Shown: positions 11,507-18,797 of the stretch, in pieces
Position numbering within the stretch: position 1 is the stretch's first letter
Layout: each line of letters opens with the position of its first letter
Assembly: GCA_937924755.1 (NCBI GenBank)
Contig: CALEVZ010000072.1
Span: 1 to 32,335 of the forward strand
Length of the DNA: 32,335 bases
Reading direction: 5' to 3'
From: an uncultured bacterium
GTDB taxonomy: Bacteria > Acidobacteriota > Thermoanaerobaculia > Thermoanaerobaculales > Thermoanaerobaculaceae
Program-made: the position numbers and the translations under genes
The notes under the pieces: model-generated
The model's database searches: none
Told to the model about the DNA's origin: nothing
The model's input: only the letters and a program-made list of their open reading frames with translations

Positions 11507-11565
11507 CCTGGCATGGTAGAGGAGATTCGCTGAGGACGTCCGAGGGCAAATATGGAGCGCCCTGC

Positions 11566-11803
11566 TTCACCTGTACTCGGGGAAGAGCACGCTGATGCTC
11601 TCGCGGTGATGGATGCGGCGGATGGCCTCGGCGAACAGCGGCGCTACCGACACCACCCGCACCTTGGGCGAAAACTCCACCGGCTGGTTTTCCACCGTGT
11701 CGGTGACCACCAGCGTCTCGATGGGTCCGGCGTCGAGACGGGCCATGGAGGAGGGCGCGAACACGGCGTGCGTTACCGCCGCCAGCACCGCACGGGCGCC
11801 GCG
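11566..11803. repeat. Left 238-bp direct repeat (displaced prs 3' end)
   Basis: Aligns without gaps to 17668-17905 (constant offset 6102). I count 9 mismatches in 238 positions, all between 11573 and 11690; the 113 bp from 11691 to 11803 are identical. The similarity stops abruptly after the GCG at 11803. Only two mismatches change the protein (final W to Y); the other seven are silent. Confidence 0.95.
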
Positions 11804-11824: not shown

Positions 11825-13711
11825 CTATTGATCACGTAGTACGTGGGGAGGAAGCTCGTCCTCCTCCAGGCGTCGGCGTCGACGGTCCGAATAGTCCACA
11901 GGATCCACGGCTTCGGGCAGTTCGAACGTCGCGAAGTCGAGGCCGTAGCTCAAACCATAGGCCACGAGGGCGAGTCCAAGGTCGTCGAGGTCGTCAATCC
12001 CTTCCAGGTCCGAAGGGATGCCGGGATCAACCACTTCAAACGGCTTCAAAGCGTTTTTTCGCAAAACGTTACCAGTAAAGTGTCGCTTGATCGCCGAGAT
12101 TCGACATCCCCCGCCTACCAGAAACAGGCGGCAGTCTTGCCAGTTTGATAACTTCGCATCTTTGGGATAGGCCGCCTTGAAGGCATCGGACAGTACCTCA
12201 TAAATACTTTCTAGAAGTGGCCTTACGTCCTTCGGCATCCGCTTGGCCAGAAACACGTCCTCGAACCCTCGTACCTCGAGTTGGTTGGGTAGCCCGTGGG
12301 CCTTCGCAATGAGGCGATCCAGGGCATCTGCTCCGGGGGGTCGTGCGGCAGCGCCCCAAAAAGAGAACTTGGCCTTCCGCCATATCTGGAAATGTCTGTC
12401 GAATTCCTCCACGATGCGGAAGAAGCATGCGTCCGTGGACCCGGCTCCGACATCGACGGATGCGTACAGCCCCGGGGGAACCCGGGGCGACTGGAAGGCC
12501 CACATCAGACTGGCAGCGGCTTCCGGGAGAAGCCACTGGGCAACCTCGTTCGGCCGAGACTGGCCCACCGCTGAGGCCGAGGATACGGCCATCTCTCGAG
12601 CGGTGCTGATCGGAACCCCATTGGCCAGTTGTGGGGTCCCTTTCTGGTACAGCCATCGGGCGCGGGCGATCATGAGCCAGTAGGAGTTCAGGGGATCGCC
12701 GCTTGCCAGAGACGCCACCGGAACACCCATGGTCATCGTCAGGCGTGGATCGAAATCCAGGCTCGCCGCGTACTCCTCGATCGCCCGCCCGCCGAGCTGG
12801 ATGAGGTGAAGCACCGACAACATGGCCAGGTCAGCCACCGAGATGCCCTCAGGCGGGTGGGTGTCAGCCTGAAAATAGGCATCGCTTGGAAAAGCGGCGC
12901 GAATCTTGAGAGATGGATACACTCTCGCCCTCGGAACCTGCGCTCGCAGCCAGGCTTCGTCACCGAAGTAGAGCCGATCGTTTTCCCACACCACCAGCGC
13001 AGGCACCCGGAAATCCCCGTCGCGACCGTAAGGCCTGACGAGGAACGACTTCTGCTCGAGTCTCGACGAAGCGTCGCGAAACACCAGCTTGGAGGTACTC
13101 GTGCCGTAGTCGATCCCGAGCTGAATGATTCGGCGGGGCCGGGCCGGAGGAGGCTGCTGGACATCCACCCGCGGGGCAGCATCTGTTAGCGGCGCAGCGG
13201 GGTGAATGACTGGCGGTGGTGGCGCCGGGGAGGCAATCGGCACTCGTTGGTCCGGCGCTCCAGGGTCCGGAGCACGGTGATCGGGCGGCGAATCGACGGT
13301 GAACGCGGTGGCGACGATGCCGCGGGGGCACAGTGAGGTTGGCGCCGCCAGGGCCTCTCCGACTGGCGTGGACGTCGTTACCTGGTGAACCACCTCGCCA
13401 TTCCCAACCGCCAACGGAACGCCTGACGGCCGAGATGCCGGTGCCGATTCGACAACTGGATTCGCACCGACTTGCGGTTCCGGCGGTGTACACCTCACCA
13501 CCGCCTGTCTTTCGTCACCCTCTGGAGGTGGGGCAGAGGGGGATGGGGGTGGTGGACCCGCCGGGCGCTCGCCGGCTGCCTCCCTCGGCGCCACCGATGG
13601 CACCCATGGCGGCTCCGCCGCTGACCCGCTGGCAGCTCCACGTGGTGACGGCCCGCGCCGGCGCCATAGCCGAGCGGTGAGCATTTCGAGCCATCGCTTC
13701 AGCCAGCCCAT
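11825..13711 (-). CDS. Actin/Hsp70-like ATPase with long Pro-rich N-terminus (628 aa)
   Basis: The C-terminal 430 residues carry the three nucleotide-binding signatures of the actin-Hsp70 superfamily: phosphate-1 DYGTSTSK (201-208), phosphate-2 DVGAGSTD (420-427) and the adenosine motif LVGGGCR (531-537). A helical tail and an acidic/basic end follow (RRRRRLEEDELPP). The first 190 or so residues are low-complexity, rich in Pro, Ala and Ser, and start with a basic amphipathic segment (MGWLKRWLEMLTARLWRRR) that could touch membrane or nucleic acid. It lacks the canonical DnaK substrate-binding domain, so it is not a housekeeping chaperone. The gene begins 4 bp after the helicase stop, with AGGTGA inside the helicase end as ribosome site, implying co-translation. 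It ends 21 bp from the left repeat. It is probably an ATP-driven switch or scaffold working with the helicase. The superfamily call is firm; the function is unknown. Confidence 0.85.
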   Translation of the reverse strand: MGWLKRWLEMLTARLWRRRGPSPRGAASGSAAEPPWVPSVAPREAAGERPAGPPPPSPSAPPPEGDERQAVVRCTPPEPQVGANPVVESAPASRPSGVPLAVGNGEVVHQVTTSTPVGEALAAPTSLCPRGIVATAFTVDSPPDHRAPDPGAPDQRVPIASPAPPPPVIHPAAPLTDAAPRVDVQQPPPARPRRIIQLGIDYGTSTSKLVFRDASSRLEQKSFLVRPYGRDGDFRVPALVVWENDRLYFGDEAWLRAQVPRARVYPSLKIRAAFPSDAYFQADTHPPEGISVADLAMLSVLHLIQLGGRAIEEYAASLDFDPRLTMTMGVPVASLASGDPLNSYWLMIARARWLYQKGTPQLANGVPISTAREMAVSSASAVGQSRPNEVAQWLLPEAAASLMWAFQSPRVPPGLYASVDVGAGSTDACFFRIVEEFDRHFQIWRKAKFSFWGAAARPPGADALDRLIAKAHGLPNQLEVRGFEDVFLAKRMPKDVRPLLESIYEVLSDAFKAAYPKDAKLSNWQDCRLFLVGGGCRISAIKRHFTGNVLRKNALKPFEVVDPGIPSDLEGIDDLDDLGLALVAYGLSYGLDFATFELPEAVDPVDYSDRRRRRLEEDELPPHVLRDQ

Positions 13712-13715
13712 TGAC

Positions 13716-16700
13716 TCACCTCTCGCTCCCGCCGCCGGTCACCTGTACGAGAGCGAGCGCAAGCTCTTCGCTTTCCAGATGCACACGATCCATCGCTAGC
13801 GCCTCGTGCCGCAAACGCTCGATCTCCCGTGTGGCCTTCTCCAGACGAGTCTTCGCCATACGGATTGGAAACGCCGGTGCCTGTCCGCGTATCAGACTCG
13901 CCAGATTTCTCTGCGCCTGGGCGGCGCGATGCTGCCAGGCCGCCAGCTCAGTTGCCCTAACTCGGGTGACCCGAGCGCGCAGCAGCGCTGCCTCGCGCTC
14001 CTCGGCGACTGCCCGGAGACGCTCGAGTTGCTGCTCCAGGGTTACCCGGGCCAGCTCCACCGCATTCGGCTCCAGACGTGGCAAGCTCGCCACCTCTTGG
14101 CATTGCCCCAGGAGCTCAACCAAGAGGCCCTCGGCTTCGTCGGCCGAAACCAGGGAACCTCGTGCCAGCGAGAAAACGATTGGTACAAGCTCAGCTCGCC
14201 TGCGCGGTTCCGGGATTTCAAAGCGAACTATCTGCAACAAATAGAGACCAGATGGCAGCGCCGAGCAGGCAACCTTTAAAGCGTAGGTGTTCGTTGCCCG
14301 TATCGCCCCCTTGGAGACTTGTCGGCAGGCGAACTGCACCAGGGGATGGCGCCGATGAATGAACTCCAGCCGGCGCAGTGTTTCCGCGGTTTCAATGGAA
14401 ACCGTGGCGGAGAAAGGTCCCTGCCGGATGAGGGCCGCGACTTGCACCGCCTCCTGGGTGTTGGAAAGCTCCGCGAGGAGATCCGACGCCGCTTCGGGCG
14501 GCAAGTGAAGGCGGGCGACACCGTCGGCAATGCCCGCAGGAACCTCGGACCCGGGATAGCGTTGGCGGTAGAAATCCTGCAGAAGCCACGCGATATCGGA
14601 GGGTTGCGCCATCCTGCGACCGCCAACGAGGGCATTGATCTCATCCAGGTAAGCCTGGTCGGCCGCCACAAGAGCATCGGAAACCCGCTCGAGATGCCGG
14701 GCCTCTTCCCGTCGGCGTTCAATGGCTCCGGCTGCATCCTCGATTCTTCGCGCTTCCTCATCCGGTGAAAGCCCACCTGCCAGCGCTTCGATGGCAATTT
14801 CTTGGACCATCTCGCCGAGTATTGGGTCGAGATCGCCGATGCTCTCCTCGAAGAGGCGGATGCGTTCATACAAGCGGAGCAGGATTCTTTCCTCGACGGA
14901 GTTCTTGATTACCAGGTTGACGATGGAGATACGAGACGCGAGCTGCCCTATGCGATCCAGCCGGCCAATCCTCTGCTCCACCACCATCGGGTTCCAGGGC
15001 AGGTCATAGTTGATGAGGACGGAGGAGCACTGCAGGTCAAGGCCCTCGCTGCCGACCTCCGAAGAGAGCAGGACGCGAATCTGCGGATCGTCACGAAATG
15101 CTTCGATCCGGATCTCGCGTTCCTCCATGGGGATACCACCGTGGATCAGGCGGTGCCCGATGCCGAGCTTCTCCAGCTTCGCGTCGAGATACTCGAGGGT
15201 CGCGCGAAAAAAAGCAAAAACAACAGCCTTGCGCGGTGGTCGATGATGTCGAGCATCATCCCACCAGACGCTATCGAAAACTCCCAGCAGTTTCTTGAGT
15301 TTGGAGTCCCTCGTCAAAGCTCTGAACGTCTGCCACCTGGCGACGAGTCTGTGCTCCAGCTCGGCCCAGGTGCGGGGAACGGGATCTTCACCGTAGCCGT
15401 CCTTACTCGAGAGCTCCCAGCCCAGTTCCTCGAAGTCGTCCAGCTCGTCGCCGCGCCTCGAGGAGGTGCGGTGGCTCACACGAGCCAGTGCCGCGGGCAG
15501 ACAGCTGGCAGCCTGGCGATGGGCCGTGGCAAAGGCCATGCGAGCGCCCCACGAAGTCAGGTCGGGTAGAAGGGTCAGAGCCTCAAACGCCTCTTGCTCT
15601 TCCGCGGAGAGGGAGACGACGATGGACTGGGGGTCGCGCTTCGGGCGCAACGTTTGAGTGTCTCGTTTCAGCGTCCGGGTCAGCACCGCATTGGTAAACG
15701 AAAGGCTCGCCAGGTCCCGTTCCAGATCGATGCGCTCGCTGCGGGTGAGGGTTTCCAACTGGCGACACCTGCTCACGACCGAGATCACGAACGGATCCGC
15801 GCGGGATTGCTCCAGGTGGGGTTGGGAGAGGTATTGCTCGAGCTTTGCCACCGCGTCACCGCTTCCGCCCGACCCCGATCGAACCACTCGCAGAGCGTCC
15901 ATCAGCGGCGCGGTGCCCTGACGTTGCACCTCGAAGACATCGAAACTGGAGAAGCTGTCAGGGTCCAACAGGTGCAGGAGCCAGAAGAGGTCCTCCGGCC
16001 CCGTCTGCAGCGGTGTCGCGGTGAGAATGAGCATGGCCTCGCTGCACTCGGCGATGGTGCGGGTCATACGGTGCTGTAGCGTCCGCGGATTGCGAGCCCG
16101 GTGCCCTTCGTCGAAGATTGCCAGGTCCAGCGCCGGCCTCAAAACGTCGAACTTCTTCTGAATATCTTCGGGCCGCACCTGCTCGTAGGACATGATCCAG
16201 TTGAACTCGGCTTCCTTACCGCTCTCGAAATCGTCCAGGAACCTCCGAAGTTCTCGAGTACTGGGCAGGTCGAAGCGCTCATCAAAACGCCGTGCCAGTT
16301 CGGTCTTCCACTTGGTTCGAAGACGAGCCGGAACGACCACCAGGACCCTCGCCAGCCGCGTGCGTGCCCGCAACTCGCGCAACACGTAACCGGCCTCGAT
16401 GGTCTTTCCGAGCCCCACCTCGTCGGCGATGAGAATGCGCCAGCGAGGGTTATCAATCAGCTTGAGCAGGGGCTTGAACTGATAGGGCAGAAACTGAGCT
16501 CTCGCCGTCCCGAAGGACGTTGCAATGGCGGAGGGAGGGCGATTGAGGCGCTCCAGGGTCATCGCCATCCGAAAGTCCTGGGCGCGTGCCAGACTGCCGC
16601 GGGCCAGGTCGCGCCATGGGTCGGCCACCTCGGGCAAGAGCTCCAAGACCTCCGCCGCGAGAGTGACCAGGCGCGTGCCGAACTGAACCTGGCATTGAAA

Positions 16701-16805
16701 CTCCTGCAGCTGCTCGCTCCAGACGGTCTTGTGCACGCGTCCGACGTCAGCCGGCTGGTCCTTGCGGCGAACCACCGAACCATTGGGAAAAACTTGAGCT
16801 GTCAT
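13716..16805 (-). CDS. SNF2/RapA-type DNA helicase/translocase (1029 aa)
   Basis: A superfamily 2 ATPase. Motif I DEVGLGKT (128-135), motif II DEGH (232-235), motif III TATP (262-265), a motif IV-like AVVFAFFRATLEYL (about 527-540), motif V SSEVGSEGLDL (581-591) and motif VI QRIGRLDRIGQ (611-621) are all intact. The order and spacing resemble RapA/HepA and the SNF2 helicases of defence islands. The N-terminus (FPNGSVVRRKDQPADVGRVHK) resembles a small RapA-like beta domain. After residue 640 there is a roughly 380-residue C-terminal part that I cannot assign, ending in a long coiled coil (about 910-1010). I see no nuclease motif. Its start ATG (16805) overlaps an upstream stop as ATGA, and the downstream ATPase gene follows after 4 bp. 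Likely role: ATP-driven movement on DNA, perhaps remodelling or sensing foreign DNA (inference). Confidence 0.9.
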   Translation of the reverse strand: MTAQVFPNGSVVRRKDQPADVGRVHKTVWSEQLQEFQCQVQFGTRLVTLAAEVLELLPEVADPWRDLARGSLARAQDFRMAMTLERLNRPPSAIATSFGTARAQFLPYQFKPLLKLIDNPRWRILIADEVGLGKTIEAGYVLRELRARTRLARVLVVVPARLRTKWKTELARRFDERFDLPSTRELRRFLDDFESGKEAEFNWIMSYEQVRPEDIQKKFDVLRPALDLAIFDEGHRARNPRTLQHRMTRTIAECSEAMLILTATPLQTGPEDLFWLLHLLDPDSFSSFDVFEVQRQGTAPLMDALRVVRSGSGGSGDAVAKLEQYLSQPHLEQSRADPFVISVVSRCRQLETLTRSERIDLERDLASLSFTNAVLTRTLKRDTQTLRPKRDPQSIVVSLSAEEQEAFEALTLLPDLTSWGARMAFATAHRQAASCLPAALARVSHRTSSRRGDELDDFEELGWELSSKDGYGEDPVPRTWAELEHRLVARWQTFRALTRDSKLKKLLGVFDSVWWDDARHHRPPRKAVVFAFFRATLEYLDAKLEKLGIGHRLIHGGIPMEEREIRIEAFRDDPQIRVLLSSEVGSEGLDLQCSSVLINYDLPWNPMVVEQRIGRLDRIGQLASRISIVNLVIKNSVEERILLRLYERIRLFEESIGDLDPILGEMVQEIAIEALAGGLSPDEEARRIEDAAGAIERRREEARHLERVSDALVAADQAYLDEINALVGGRRMAQPSDIAWLLQDFYRQRYPGSEVPAGIADGVARLHLPPEAASDLLAELSNTQEAVQVAALIRQGPFSATVSIETAETLRRLEFIHRRHPLVQFACRQVSKGAIRATNTYALKVACSALPSGLYLLQIVRFEIPEPRRRAELVPIVFSLARGSLVSADEAEGLLVELLGQCQEVASLPRLEPNAVELARVTLEQQLERLRAVAEEREAALLRARVTRVRATELAAWQHRAAQAQRNLASLIRGQAPAFPIRMAKTRLEKATREIERLRHEALAMDRVHLESEELALALVQVTGGGSER

Positions 16806-17377
16806 ACCTGTCCCGCACCCGGTGCCGCAGCACGGTCCGTCTCAGGCTCAGGGTCCACGTGCGCCTCCCCACCAGGGACGGAGCGCAGATCGGCAAGGAA
16901 CTCGGAGGCGAGGGCGACGCCGTTTACCCGCAGGTGATCGCGGGTGCGGGTGGACGCTACACTCGAGAGGCGGCGCTCGATCTCGACAGAATTCTTGGTA
17001 TGTGGCCACCGCGTAGCGCTGCAGCTGTCCCGCAAGGGTGGCGAGGACTTACTGTGACCTGTGGCGGAAGCCGGCGGGTAGGCGGGGGACAAGCCGGCAT
17101 GATCCCCAGCTTTTCCGGGAGCCGCGTAACGTTGCGGCTCTGCCAGATCATTCATCTGGCAGAGCTGCAGCCTTCCCACGGGAGAGTAACGGGACAAGAG
17201 CATCATGAGTTGCCTCGATGGCTTTCGGGTCCACAGGTTTCCCTGCTCCAATTCAGGCAAGACGATGTTCCGTTTGGAGATGGTGAGGAGGGCTGCGGGT
17301 ACTCTCATGACCTCTCCAATCGCTTCGCCGCAAGGACGAGGATCGCTGACTGCTCGACAGCTTAGCTTTTCAACCAA
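16802..17377 (-). pseudogene. Degraded or uncharacterised ORF coupled to the helicase gene
   Basis: An open frame of 191 codons whose stop overlaps the helicase start (ATGA). Only its last 65 or so codons look coding: NSVEIERRLSSVAST through VNGVALASEFLADLRS uses mostly G/C third positions. Upstream the frame becomes Ser/Pro/Arg-rich and crosses a perfect hairpin. In an adjacent frame, about 17050-16990 reads VLATLAGQLQRYAVATYQ, which joins smoothly to NSVEIERR if one base is removed near 16990, but a stop lies just before that piece. I read this as the 3' remnant of a former third island gene, frameshifted and truncated. The alternative is a genuine short leader protein. I recognise no family. 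Confidence 0.35.
17137..17165. repeat. Perfect 12-bp inverted repeat (hairpin or operator)
   Basis: GCTCTGCCAGAT (17137-17148), loop CATTC, then ATCTGGCAGAGC (17154-17165): two perfect 12-bp arms with a 5-nt loop. There is no T-run after either arm. It lies about 330 bp upstream of the helicase start, where an operator, an attenuator or a recombination site could be. Confidence 0.7.
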
Positions 17378-17667
17378 CCTGGCGCCGCGGGCGTCCGAGT
17401 TGTAGCTGAGATGATTGTAGACGAGACGGCCGACCTGGGTGGCAAGGGCCTTGAACGGTCAATTCTCGAGGCCAGCATGGTGCGTTCCGGGTAGACAGCT
17501 CACCGGGACGCGCCGGCGTTTCACCTTCGTCGTTTCACCGCCGTTCAGATGAGGCGTCGCCTGGGCCCCCACGGCTTGAGTTGACAGTAGTGTGTAAACA
17601 TGGTGGCGAGAATTACAGCCCCATCGGTTCTCCGAGATTCCCAGGGCGAGGTGCCCCTGGCTCCTTT
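17378..17667. other. Non-coding right end of the island
   Basis: No convincing gene on either strand. TTGACA occurs on the plus strand at 17581-17586 without a good -10 at the right distance. The octamer GTTTCACC occurs at 17518 and 17532. I see no integrase fragment or clear promoter for the leftward island genes. Confidence 0.5.
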
Positions 17668-17905
17668 TTCACCTCCACTCGGGGAAGAGCACGCTGATGC
17701 TCTCGCGGTGATGGATGCGGCGGATGGCCTCGGCGAACAGCGGCGCCACGGAGACGACGCGCACCTTGGGCGAGAACTCCACCGGCTGGTTCTCCACCGT
17801 GTCGGTGACCACCAGCGTCTCGATGGGTCCGGCGTCGAGACGGGCCATGGAGGAGGGCGCGAACACGGCGTGCGTTACCGCCGCCAGCACCGCACGGGCG
17901 CCGCG
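17668..17905. repeat. Right 238-bp direct repeat (3' end of intact prs)
   Basis: Partner of 11566-11803. This copy is continuous with the rest of prs and supplies its last 78 or so codons and stop. Similarity ends at 17905 inside the prs reading frame. Confidence 0.95.
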
Positions 17906-18607
17906 CTCAAGCAGCGCCTCGGCGGCGGCGTTCAAGGTGCTGGCGGAAATGGTGAAGTCGTCGACGATCAGGGCGGTGCGGTCGCGCACCTCGCCGATGA
18001 TCTCCACCGAGGTGACCTTTTCCTCGTGCCCATCCCGCACCTTGTCGGCGATGACCAGGGGGGCGCCCAGGTGGGAGGCGTAGCGGCGGGCCTTTTTGGC
18101 GAAGCCGGCGTCGGGGGCGACCACCACGAAGCCCTCTGGGAGGAGGGGGCGCACGGCGTCGCAGAGGATGGGCAGGGCGTAGAGGTCGTCCACGGGGACG
18201 CGAAAGAAACCCTGGATCTGGGGGGCGTGCAGGTCCATGGTGACCAGGCGGTCAGCCCCCGCCGCCTCGATGGCGTCGGCGCACACCCGCGCCCGGATGG
18301 ACACCCGCGGCTCGTCCTTCTTGTCCCCCTTGGCGTAGGAGAAGTACGGCACCACCGCGGTGACCGAGGCGGCCGAGGCGCGCTTTAAGGCATCGATCCA
18401 GAAGAGCAGCTCCATGAAGGTGTCGTTGGCGGGGAAGGCGGTGGTTTGCACCACGTAGGTGTGGCGTCCGCGCACGTTGGTGAGCACCCGCACGAAGAGG
18501 TTGCCCTCGGAAAAGCGCAGCGTTTCGCCGGCGGCCACCGATATGCCGAGAGCTGCGGCGATGCGACCAGCCAGGCGCCGGCTGCCGGAGCCGGCGAAGA
18601 GCAGCAT
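17669..18607 (-). CDS. prs: Ribose-phosphate pyrophosphokinase (312 aa)
   Basis: Transfers pyrophosphate from ATP to ribose 5-phosphate, giving PRPP for nucleotide, His and Trp synthesis. Family blocks present: VVPYFSYAKGDKKDEPRVSI, TMDLHAPQIQGFF followed by VPVDDLYALPIL, VAPDAGFAKKARRYA, and the PRPP loop VDDFTISASTLN. The PRPP loop reads DDFTISAST rather than the commoner DDxxDTxGT, and the KDxP region is KKDEPR, so it belongs to a divergent prs branch. The start ATG at 18607 has AGGAAGGGGA upstream; the frame is open further but without a ribosome site. Its last 237 bases are duplicated at 11566-11803, across the island. The neighbour beyond the start is the divergent mlaE-type operon. Confidence 0.92.
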   Translation of the reverse strand: MLLFAGSGSRRLAGRIAAALGISVAAGETLRFSEGNLFVRVLTNVRGRHTYVVQTTAFPANDTFMELLFWIDALKRASAASVTAVVPYFSYAKGDKKDEPRVSIRARVCADAIEAAGADRLVTMDLHAPQIQGFFRVPVDDLYALPILCDAVRPLLPEGFVVVAPDAGFAKKARRYASHLGAPLVIADKVRDGHEEKVTSVEIIGEVRDRTALIVDDFTISASTLNAAAEALLERGARAVLAAVTHAVFAPSSMARLDAGPIETLVVTDTVENQPVEFSPKVRVVSVAPLFAEAIRRIHHRESISVLFPEWR

Positions 18608-18797
18608 CGCGTCCCCTTCCTGCCCGCGCCGGGACGCCTCGAATGCCGTGCGGAGTCCCACAGTGGGAGAGTGTAGCTGAAGCCAAGGTCCGCGGTGCGG
18701 GTCGGCGGTGCTAGGCTGCATCCATGGCTGTTCCCGGGCGTGGTGGGACAGGTCGTCGGCGCGGCGAATCCGCTGGGCGGCGGGGGCGGGAGGGGCA

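Follow-up and report, generated by a model that had tools for sequence, protein, structure and literature searches.

The contig CALEVZ010000072.1 of an uncultured Thermoanaerobaculaceae bacterium (assembly GCA_937924755.1) carries on its minus strand a gene for an SNF2-type translocase, followed at once by a gene for an ATPase of the Hsp70/actin superfamily. We analyzed the whole stretch of 32,335 nucleotides, referred to below as the window. A sequence-only reading had proposed the pair as a candidate undescribed system of two genes 4 bp apart, and both open reading frames (ORFs) proved to be intact and separated by 4 bases. The features of the pair are as follows.

13716..16805, minus strand: SNF2/RapA/DrmD-like translocase, 1029 aa (ORF, profile, motif and model evidence)
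11825..13711, minus strand: ATPase with the fold of an Hsp70 nucleotide-binding domain (NBD)/actin, 628 aa, without substrate-binding domain (ORF, conserved residues, model)
13151..13711, minus strand: low-complexity Pro-rich N-terminal head of the ATPase, about 187 aa, starting with a Trp/Leu/Arg-rich stretch

The SNF2 motor is complete, as the sequence-only reading had held: Pfam detected SNF2-rel_dom (3e-24) and Helicase_C (1e-22), the motifs DEVGLGKT, DEGH, TATP, SSEVGSEGLDLQ and QRIGRLDRIGQ are present, and the active-site residues are conserved among homologues. A model built from an 18-row alignment (mean pLDDT 80.8) predicts a small beta domain at residues 11-56, the motor at about 91-718 and a RapA-like C-terminal part with two long helices (913-973 and 978-1004). 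The 380-aa C-terminal part previously left unassigned is thus better described as RapA-like. Four RapA entries align with the model from residue 61/62 to 1024/1025, over 795-814 residues at a root-mean-square deviation (rmsd) of 8-10; for E. coli RapA (8spg, model residues 62-1025) the values were Z 25.4, 800 aligned residues and rmsd 10.0. These rmsd values are high, and only residues 91-718 are covered by at least a fifth of the alignment rows. Because the model aligns with RapA along 62-1025, the C-terminal third appears to follow RapA as well, and a motor with intact motifs plus a RapA-like C-terminal part places the protein in the SNF2/RapA superfamily. The N-terminal beta domain may resemble the single Tudor domain of BrxHII described in the available part of PMC12839542. 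A nuclease in the C-terminal part was rejected, as the 18-row alignment showed no conserved PD-(D/E)XK-like set. Sequence and model together suggest a double-stranded-DNA translocase laid out like RapA, DrmD and BrxHII, in which no nuclease is recognisable.

The partner ATPase gave nothing beyond noise in Pfam, NCBIfam and PADLOC and nothing in the PDB by sequence, and ten homologues had no or weak matches in Pfam and PADLOC; weak ATPase matches included MreB-like_C, Alp7A and ALP_N. It nonetheless bears the actin/Hsp70 signature GxDxGTxxxK ... PE ... DxG ... GGG ... AxGL, which begins at residue 199 behind the Pro-rich head and whose blocks we take to be the phosphate-1, phosphate-2 and adenosine motifs. 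Its key active-site residues are invariant across 15 homologues. A model of the core (15 rows; pLDDT 83.2, pTM 0.85) matched Hsp70 NBDs by VIA with Z 27.9 and rmsd 3.3 over 313 residues, and by Foldseek at E 6.6e-12, with best TM-scores of only about 0.5. The nucleotide motifs and the NBD fold assign the protein to the Hsp70/actin ATPase superfamily, in agreement with the sequence-only reading, and refine that assignment to the Hsp70 NBD as nearest fold; this ranking comes from Foldseek and VIA lists filled by Hsp70s, without direct comparison to actin and ParM. The substrate-binding domain of an Hsp70 chaperone is absent: the chain stops soon after the NBD, Pfam gave no HSP70 match, and the structural rows cover model residues 7-415.

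The Pro-rich head, which the sequence-only reading had described as disordered and 190 aa long, is present in the window and in many homologues. It is not universal and is therefore probably not the core of the mechanism. Membrane tethering through an N-terminal amphipathic helix was kept only as a side idea: D>=1.34 (amphipathic helix) was reached by eight of 20 ATPases and by 17% of 668 ORFs (p=3e-4 in a rank test), but a strict test was passed by only 4 of the 20, and several members are headless. Where the head would be, the Leptolyngbya ATPase (L003:6641-8875) has a hydrophobic beginning of membrane-like character and a long stretch resembling a coiled coil. Many ATPases end in a tail of the aromatic-x-x-x-Lys/Arg-Asp/Glu type (SKDLV, TKDLT, SKDYC, GKEQT), which may serve for docking; HVLRDQ is the end of the window ATPase.

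We built the family from the SNF2 side because single-protein ATPase searches gave almost nothing (1 of 99 relatives, namely the window's own genome, and one plasmid). The SNF2 alignment was scanned against genome contigs, the best 80 loci were kept, and viral contigs and plasmids were added; a FastTree tree was computed from 127 rows. The window SNF2 falls in a 21-row clade with support 99, and in 19 of these 21 rows an ATPase gene of the same orientation is at most 400 bases away; in most cases the two genes overlap by a few bases or are separated by fewer than 60. The two rows without an ATPase call are the second fragment of a broken SNF2 gene that has the ATPase beside its first fragment (L073) and a locus at a contig edge (L071). 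Imperfect copies among the 19 are L056 and L057, with broken ATPase frames, and L088, in which SNF2 is cut by the contig end. Among the matches listed, the nearest pairs come from a gammaproteobacterial and a Binatia metagenome-assembled genome (MAG), at 38-39% SNF2 identity. Plasmids, including the conjugative pSF1 and pAA03, also carry the pair; the ATPase alignment matched no viral contig, and the one viral contig bearing the pair (L007) was reached from the SNF2 side.

Searches from the ATPase side agreed with this picture. In the class of L059, 2 of 337 genomes had a strong match, both with SNF2 adjacent; in the phylum of L055, six of 345 genomes matched and five had SNF2 adjacent. The lone exception, G945 (L173), holds a truncated remnant: its ATPase has lost the N-terminal end, SNF2 is missing, and two ORFs that by eye resemble IS21 IstA/IstB lie immediately upstream. 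L059 and L055 themselves belong to two of the eight genomes, and a third, G871, looks identical to the L056 genome; the eight are therefore not all independent of the SNF2-clade count. Six plasmid records matched, with SNF2 adjacent in the five examined and agreeing coordinates of the two matches in the sixth. Eleven genomes with weak ATPase matches (27-36 bits) were left out of the count as probable other actin-fold proteins; in the one of these looked at (L150), SNF2 is absent from its 3.4 kb. Over 18 pairs, ATPase and SNF2 distances correlated with r=0.939, a value reached in none of 5000 permutations (highest 0.475). The sequence-only reading had named co-occurrence of homologues as a check, and it is very strong from the SNF2 side and, with the single remnant excepted, from the ATPase side. 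The coupling of SNF2 and ATPase is seen at the level of genetic linkage and co-inheritance.

A location in defence islands, the second proposed check, was also strongly supported against a control. The flanks of 12 pair loci (80 proteins) matched 179 PADLOC families at E<=1e-25, whereas the flanks of 11 control loci of SNF2 relatives (79 proteins) matched one (mad3, 4 members). Redundant profiles inflate the count of 179, and the control set had been trimmed by hand; even so, the contrast is large. The neighbours range from BREX, Hma, RM and Hachiman genes to a DISARM-like cluster. Restriction-modification (RM) genes are found at several loci: type I HsdR and HsdS at L056, HsdR at L058, a type II/IIG methyltransferase together with PDC-S14 at L070, a type III methyltransferase at L077 and, by eye, C5-methyltransferase-like and Vsr-like ORFs at L175, where a 619-aa ORF also has an MZB domain over the cut-off, as in DrmB. 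Other neighbours are HmaB and, at 5e-14, HmaC (L051), TmtA (L059), PDC-S68 (L074) and, as annotated, Hachiman HamA, AbiEii and restriction endonucleases (L162); weaker ones occur at L088, L004 and L052. A DrmD match of 6.8e-278 in the pooled flank set is probably the second SNF2 of L074. At L055 (6390-18661), BrxC and PglX stand on either side of the pair on the same strand. The related pairs L059 and L162, with ATPases 58% identical, lie in different islands, one TmtA-like and the other Hachiman. On a Sphingobium plasmid (L004:13942-17989), two further genes, weakly ZacA-like and ZacB/PLD-like, accompany the pair in a possible four-gene variant.

Sister SNF2 clades were found to carry a different ATPase in the same slot. 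In 16 rows (L005, L006, L008, L009, L011, L012, L060-L064, L066, L067, L087, L103, L122), the DrmD-like SNF2 is followed at once by an Hsp90/sacsin-type ATPase, and the one tested, from L067, matched PADLOC TmtA at 2.6e-72. This pair also occurs in archaea (a Methanomethylovorans plasmid and Thorarchaeota) and seems equally unnamed. At L065 (3756-8512), the SNF2 gene overlaps one for a 441-aa true Hsp70 NBD (PF00012, 7.4e-35) without substrate-binding domain, apparently an independent pairing, the tree placement of L065 being weakly supported. Given the Hsp90/sacsin type in the sister clades and the true Hsp70 in L065, it would be the motor that stays constant, while the chaperone-type switch can be exchanged.

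In the window, the pair lies in a 6.1-kb island bounded by direct repeats.

11561..11803, minus strand: displaced 3' end of prs, left boundary repeat, about 81 codons, 96% identical protein
17663..17905, minus strand: 3' end of intact prs, right boundary repeat
16806..17662, no strand assigned: gene-poor part of the island, with an inverted repeat (17128-17148/17154-17174)

The repeats are 243 nt each and identical at 232 of 243 positions, both corresponding to the 3' end of prs; the intact gene spans 17669-18721 and is a second paralogue, the other prs being located on contig C1 of the genome (46% identity). Besides the pair, no intact gene was recognised between the repeats, where two ORFs tested had no Pfam match, nor was an integrase recognised at the island. 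GC content is 62% for SNF2 and 63% for the ATPase (61% for its core), against 69.5% elsewhere in the window; at third codon positions it is 0.73 and 0.68, compared with 0.83-0.91 in five of six other ORFs tested (0.66 in the sixth). The description of the pair as the only intact cargo of a horizontally acquired-looking island is borne out by these observations. The prs layout looks like the trace of an element that arrives with a duplicate of the end of the gene it targets, and recombination of the repeats would excise the pair and leave prs intact.

SNF2-type helicases are also part of the Zorya (ZorD) and Azaca defence systems. The Sphingobium copy has its weakly ZacA/ZacB-like genes, whereas beside most copies of the pair ZorAB or ZacA/ZacB were not recognised. 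The PADLOC candidate PDC-M61 includes a distant ATPase relative, PDC-M61B (L070 7e-7; L164 54 bits); we rejected it as the same system, the one PDC-M61B locus examined being without SNF2. PDC-M61A (482 positions) matched in none of seven records or genomes (six pair loci and the window's own genome), in a search in which no positive control matched. At L176 (5716-8899), a PDC-M61B-type ATPase (553 aa) comes right after a 495-aa gene and SNF2 is absent, which makes this a related candidate system. CoCoNuT CnuD likewise has an Hsp70-like domain recruited into a predicted defence system; in the available part of its description it is linked to McrB GTPases and has a substrate-binding domain, whereas the window ATPase is an NBD only and stands with SNF2 (PMC11090510). 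The window ATPase was in none of the libraries used, and a literature search of open-access papers, which leaves aside most subscription journals, found no paper recognisable as describing the SNF2-ATPase pair. From these comparisons, the pair would be a defence module built on SNF2 whose partner is new and conserved.

We consider it somewhat probable that these two genes form a self-contained defence module against invaders, mobile by horizontal transfer, in which a switch of Hsp70-NBD fold gates an SNF2 translocase. The two proteins are both predicted to be active ATPases, and their genes appear to be inherited jointly, in many cases in a defence setting. The most economical role for an ATPase without a peptide-binding part would be to clamp or gate the motor in a nucleotide-dependent way. 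Such a role would be comparable to that of the actin and actin-related protein (Arp) subunits which, according to the available parts of PMC5969521 and PMC6098158, regulate the eukaryotic SNF2 remodellers SWI/SNF, RSC and INO80. In those complexes an actin-superfamily ATPase is likewise a stable SNF2 partner; the analogy concerns the way of working only, as the nearest fold of the window ATPase is the Hsp70 NBD. Complex formation, gating, the DNA target and the outcome for a phage are steps that we infer. The ATPase would hold the motor idle until foreign DNA, or stalled replication or transcription on it, is engaged; its nucleotide state would then flip and release or couple translocation, and the motor would run on the invading DNA and strip polymerases or replication proteins. 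Alternatively, it may open that DNA to nucleases of the host or of a neighbouring system. Stripping or nuclease exposure is the weakest step of this proposal.

Several observations weigh against the defence module. Past SNF2 residue 660, no more than two columns of acidic residues or Lys are kept in at least 13 of 18 rows and no nuclease or effector was recognised, so how a phage would be stopped is a guess. No strong defence gene was found among the proteins scanned at L050, L053, L054 and L007, by annotation or eye at L002, L003, L161 and L174, or among the neighbours looked at in the window island, and guilt by association can mislead. Long-standing operon linkage would by itself yield a high mirror-tree correlation. 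The extra genes of the Sphingobium copy mean that two genes may not always suffice.

An alternative that we regard as unlikely is that the SNF2 protein is an orphan or divergent DISARM- or BREX-type helicase (DrmD/BrxHII) with an accessory ATPase, a subunit of whichever RM, BREX or DISARM-like system is near. The protein resembles class 1 DISARM DrmD near full length, matching PADLOC PDLC02623 at 504 bits over 895 residues (9-903), and DNA methyltransferases lie close to several copies. It scored 328.8 bits with NCBIfam DrmD NF038317, however, below the cut-off of 610, and has a conserved Hsp70-fold partner, unlike DISARM DrmD. The absence of other DISARM components, asserted by the sequence-only reading, held for the methyltransferase DrmMI, with no match in the window's own genome (PDLC02641 only; genome 96.9% complete; controls matched in 3 of 14). 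It was less clear-cut for DrmA and DrmB: the DrmA profile PDLC02572 matched this SNF2 itself and two weak helicases, and the genome encodes one MZB protein, on another contig, no dedicated DrmB model having been run. With SNF2 under the NCBIfam cut-off and DrmMI absent, we rejected DISARM membership. A RapA-like layout and a defence setting are shared with BREX BrxHII and ARMADA ArmA; neither PMC12839542 nor PMC12458937 mentions Hsp70, and their available parts present no actin-fold subunit. Unlike those systems, the pair itself is without methyltransferase or YprA helicase. Among 10 window ORFs scanned with Pfam, no BrxC, PglX or PglZ was recognised. The position of the L055 pair inside a BrxC-PglX operon argues for a BREX accessory. 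It fits an independent module equally well, because PARIS is embedded as a separate system in a BREX island of Salmonella (PMC11341690, available part). Against a subunit role, the neighbouring systems vary from locus to locus while the ATPase is constant, and several copies have no such system nearby.

The alignment with E. coli RapA over about 800 residues, and a partner that could be a chaperone, would also suit a role outside defence, in which a RapA paralogue aided by an Hsp70-like protein recycles RNA polymerase or repairs DNA. We hold this to be very improbable: the RapA model PRK04914 gave 214 bits against a cut-off of 576, and unlike RapA the window SNF2 is rare and patchy (1/99, 2/337, 6/345), mobile and paired with an ATPase, which itself has no substrate-binding domain; copies reside on plasmids, in a low-GC island and, unlike the SNF2 controls, in defence islands. 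Maintenance of, or competition between, plasmids or mobile elements, with an actin-fold segregation-type ATPase and a DNA motor that shifts or destroys competing plasmids, could account for the six plasmid records, for the weak matches to MreB-like_C, Alp7A and ALP_N and for the long direct repeats flanking the island. It is nevertheless improbable: chromosomal or unassigned contigs hold most of the copies found, many of them in anti-phage islands, no partition adaptor was recognised beside the pair, and Hsp70 is the closest fold listed.

DISARM, BREX, ARMADA and Zorya all use SNF2 helicases, and the pair is a minimal case: its presumed regulator is nearly always one gene away across several phyla, and a sister clade swaps that regulator for another ATPase of chaperone type. 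Tentatively, and with some doubt, we put forward the broader possibility of an SNF2 remodeller obligately paired with an Hsp70-NBD-fold ATPase in immunity, a prokaryotic counterpart in logic of Arp/actin in SWI/SNF and INO80, with three switch types on the same kind of motor: an Hsp70 fold lacking the chaperone part, the Hsp90/sacsin type and a true Hsp70. In this two-protein setting, gating of a defence translocase can be put to a direct test, and the pair gives the actin/Arp subunits of eukaryotic remodellers a bacterial point of comparison.

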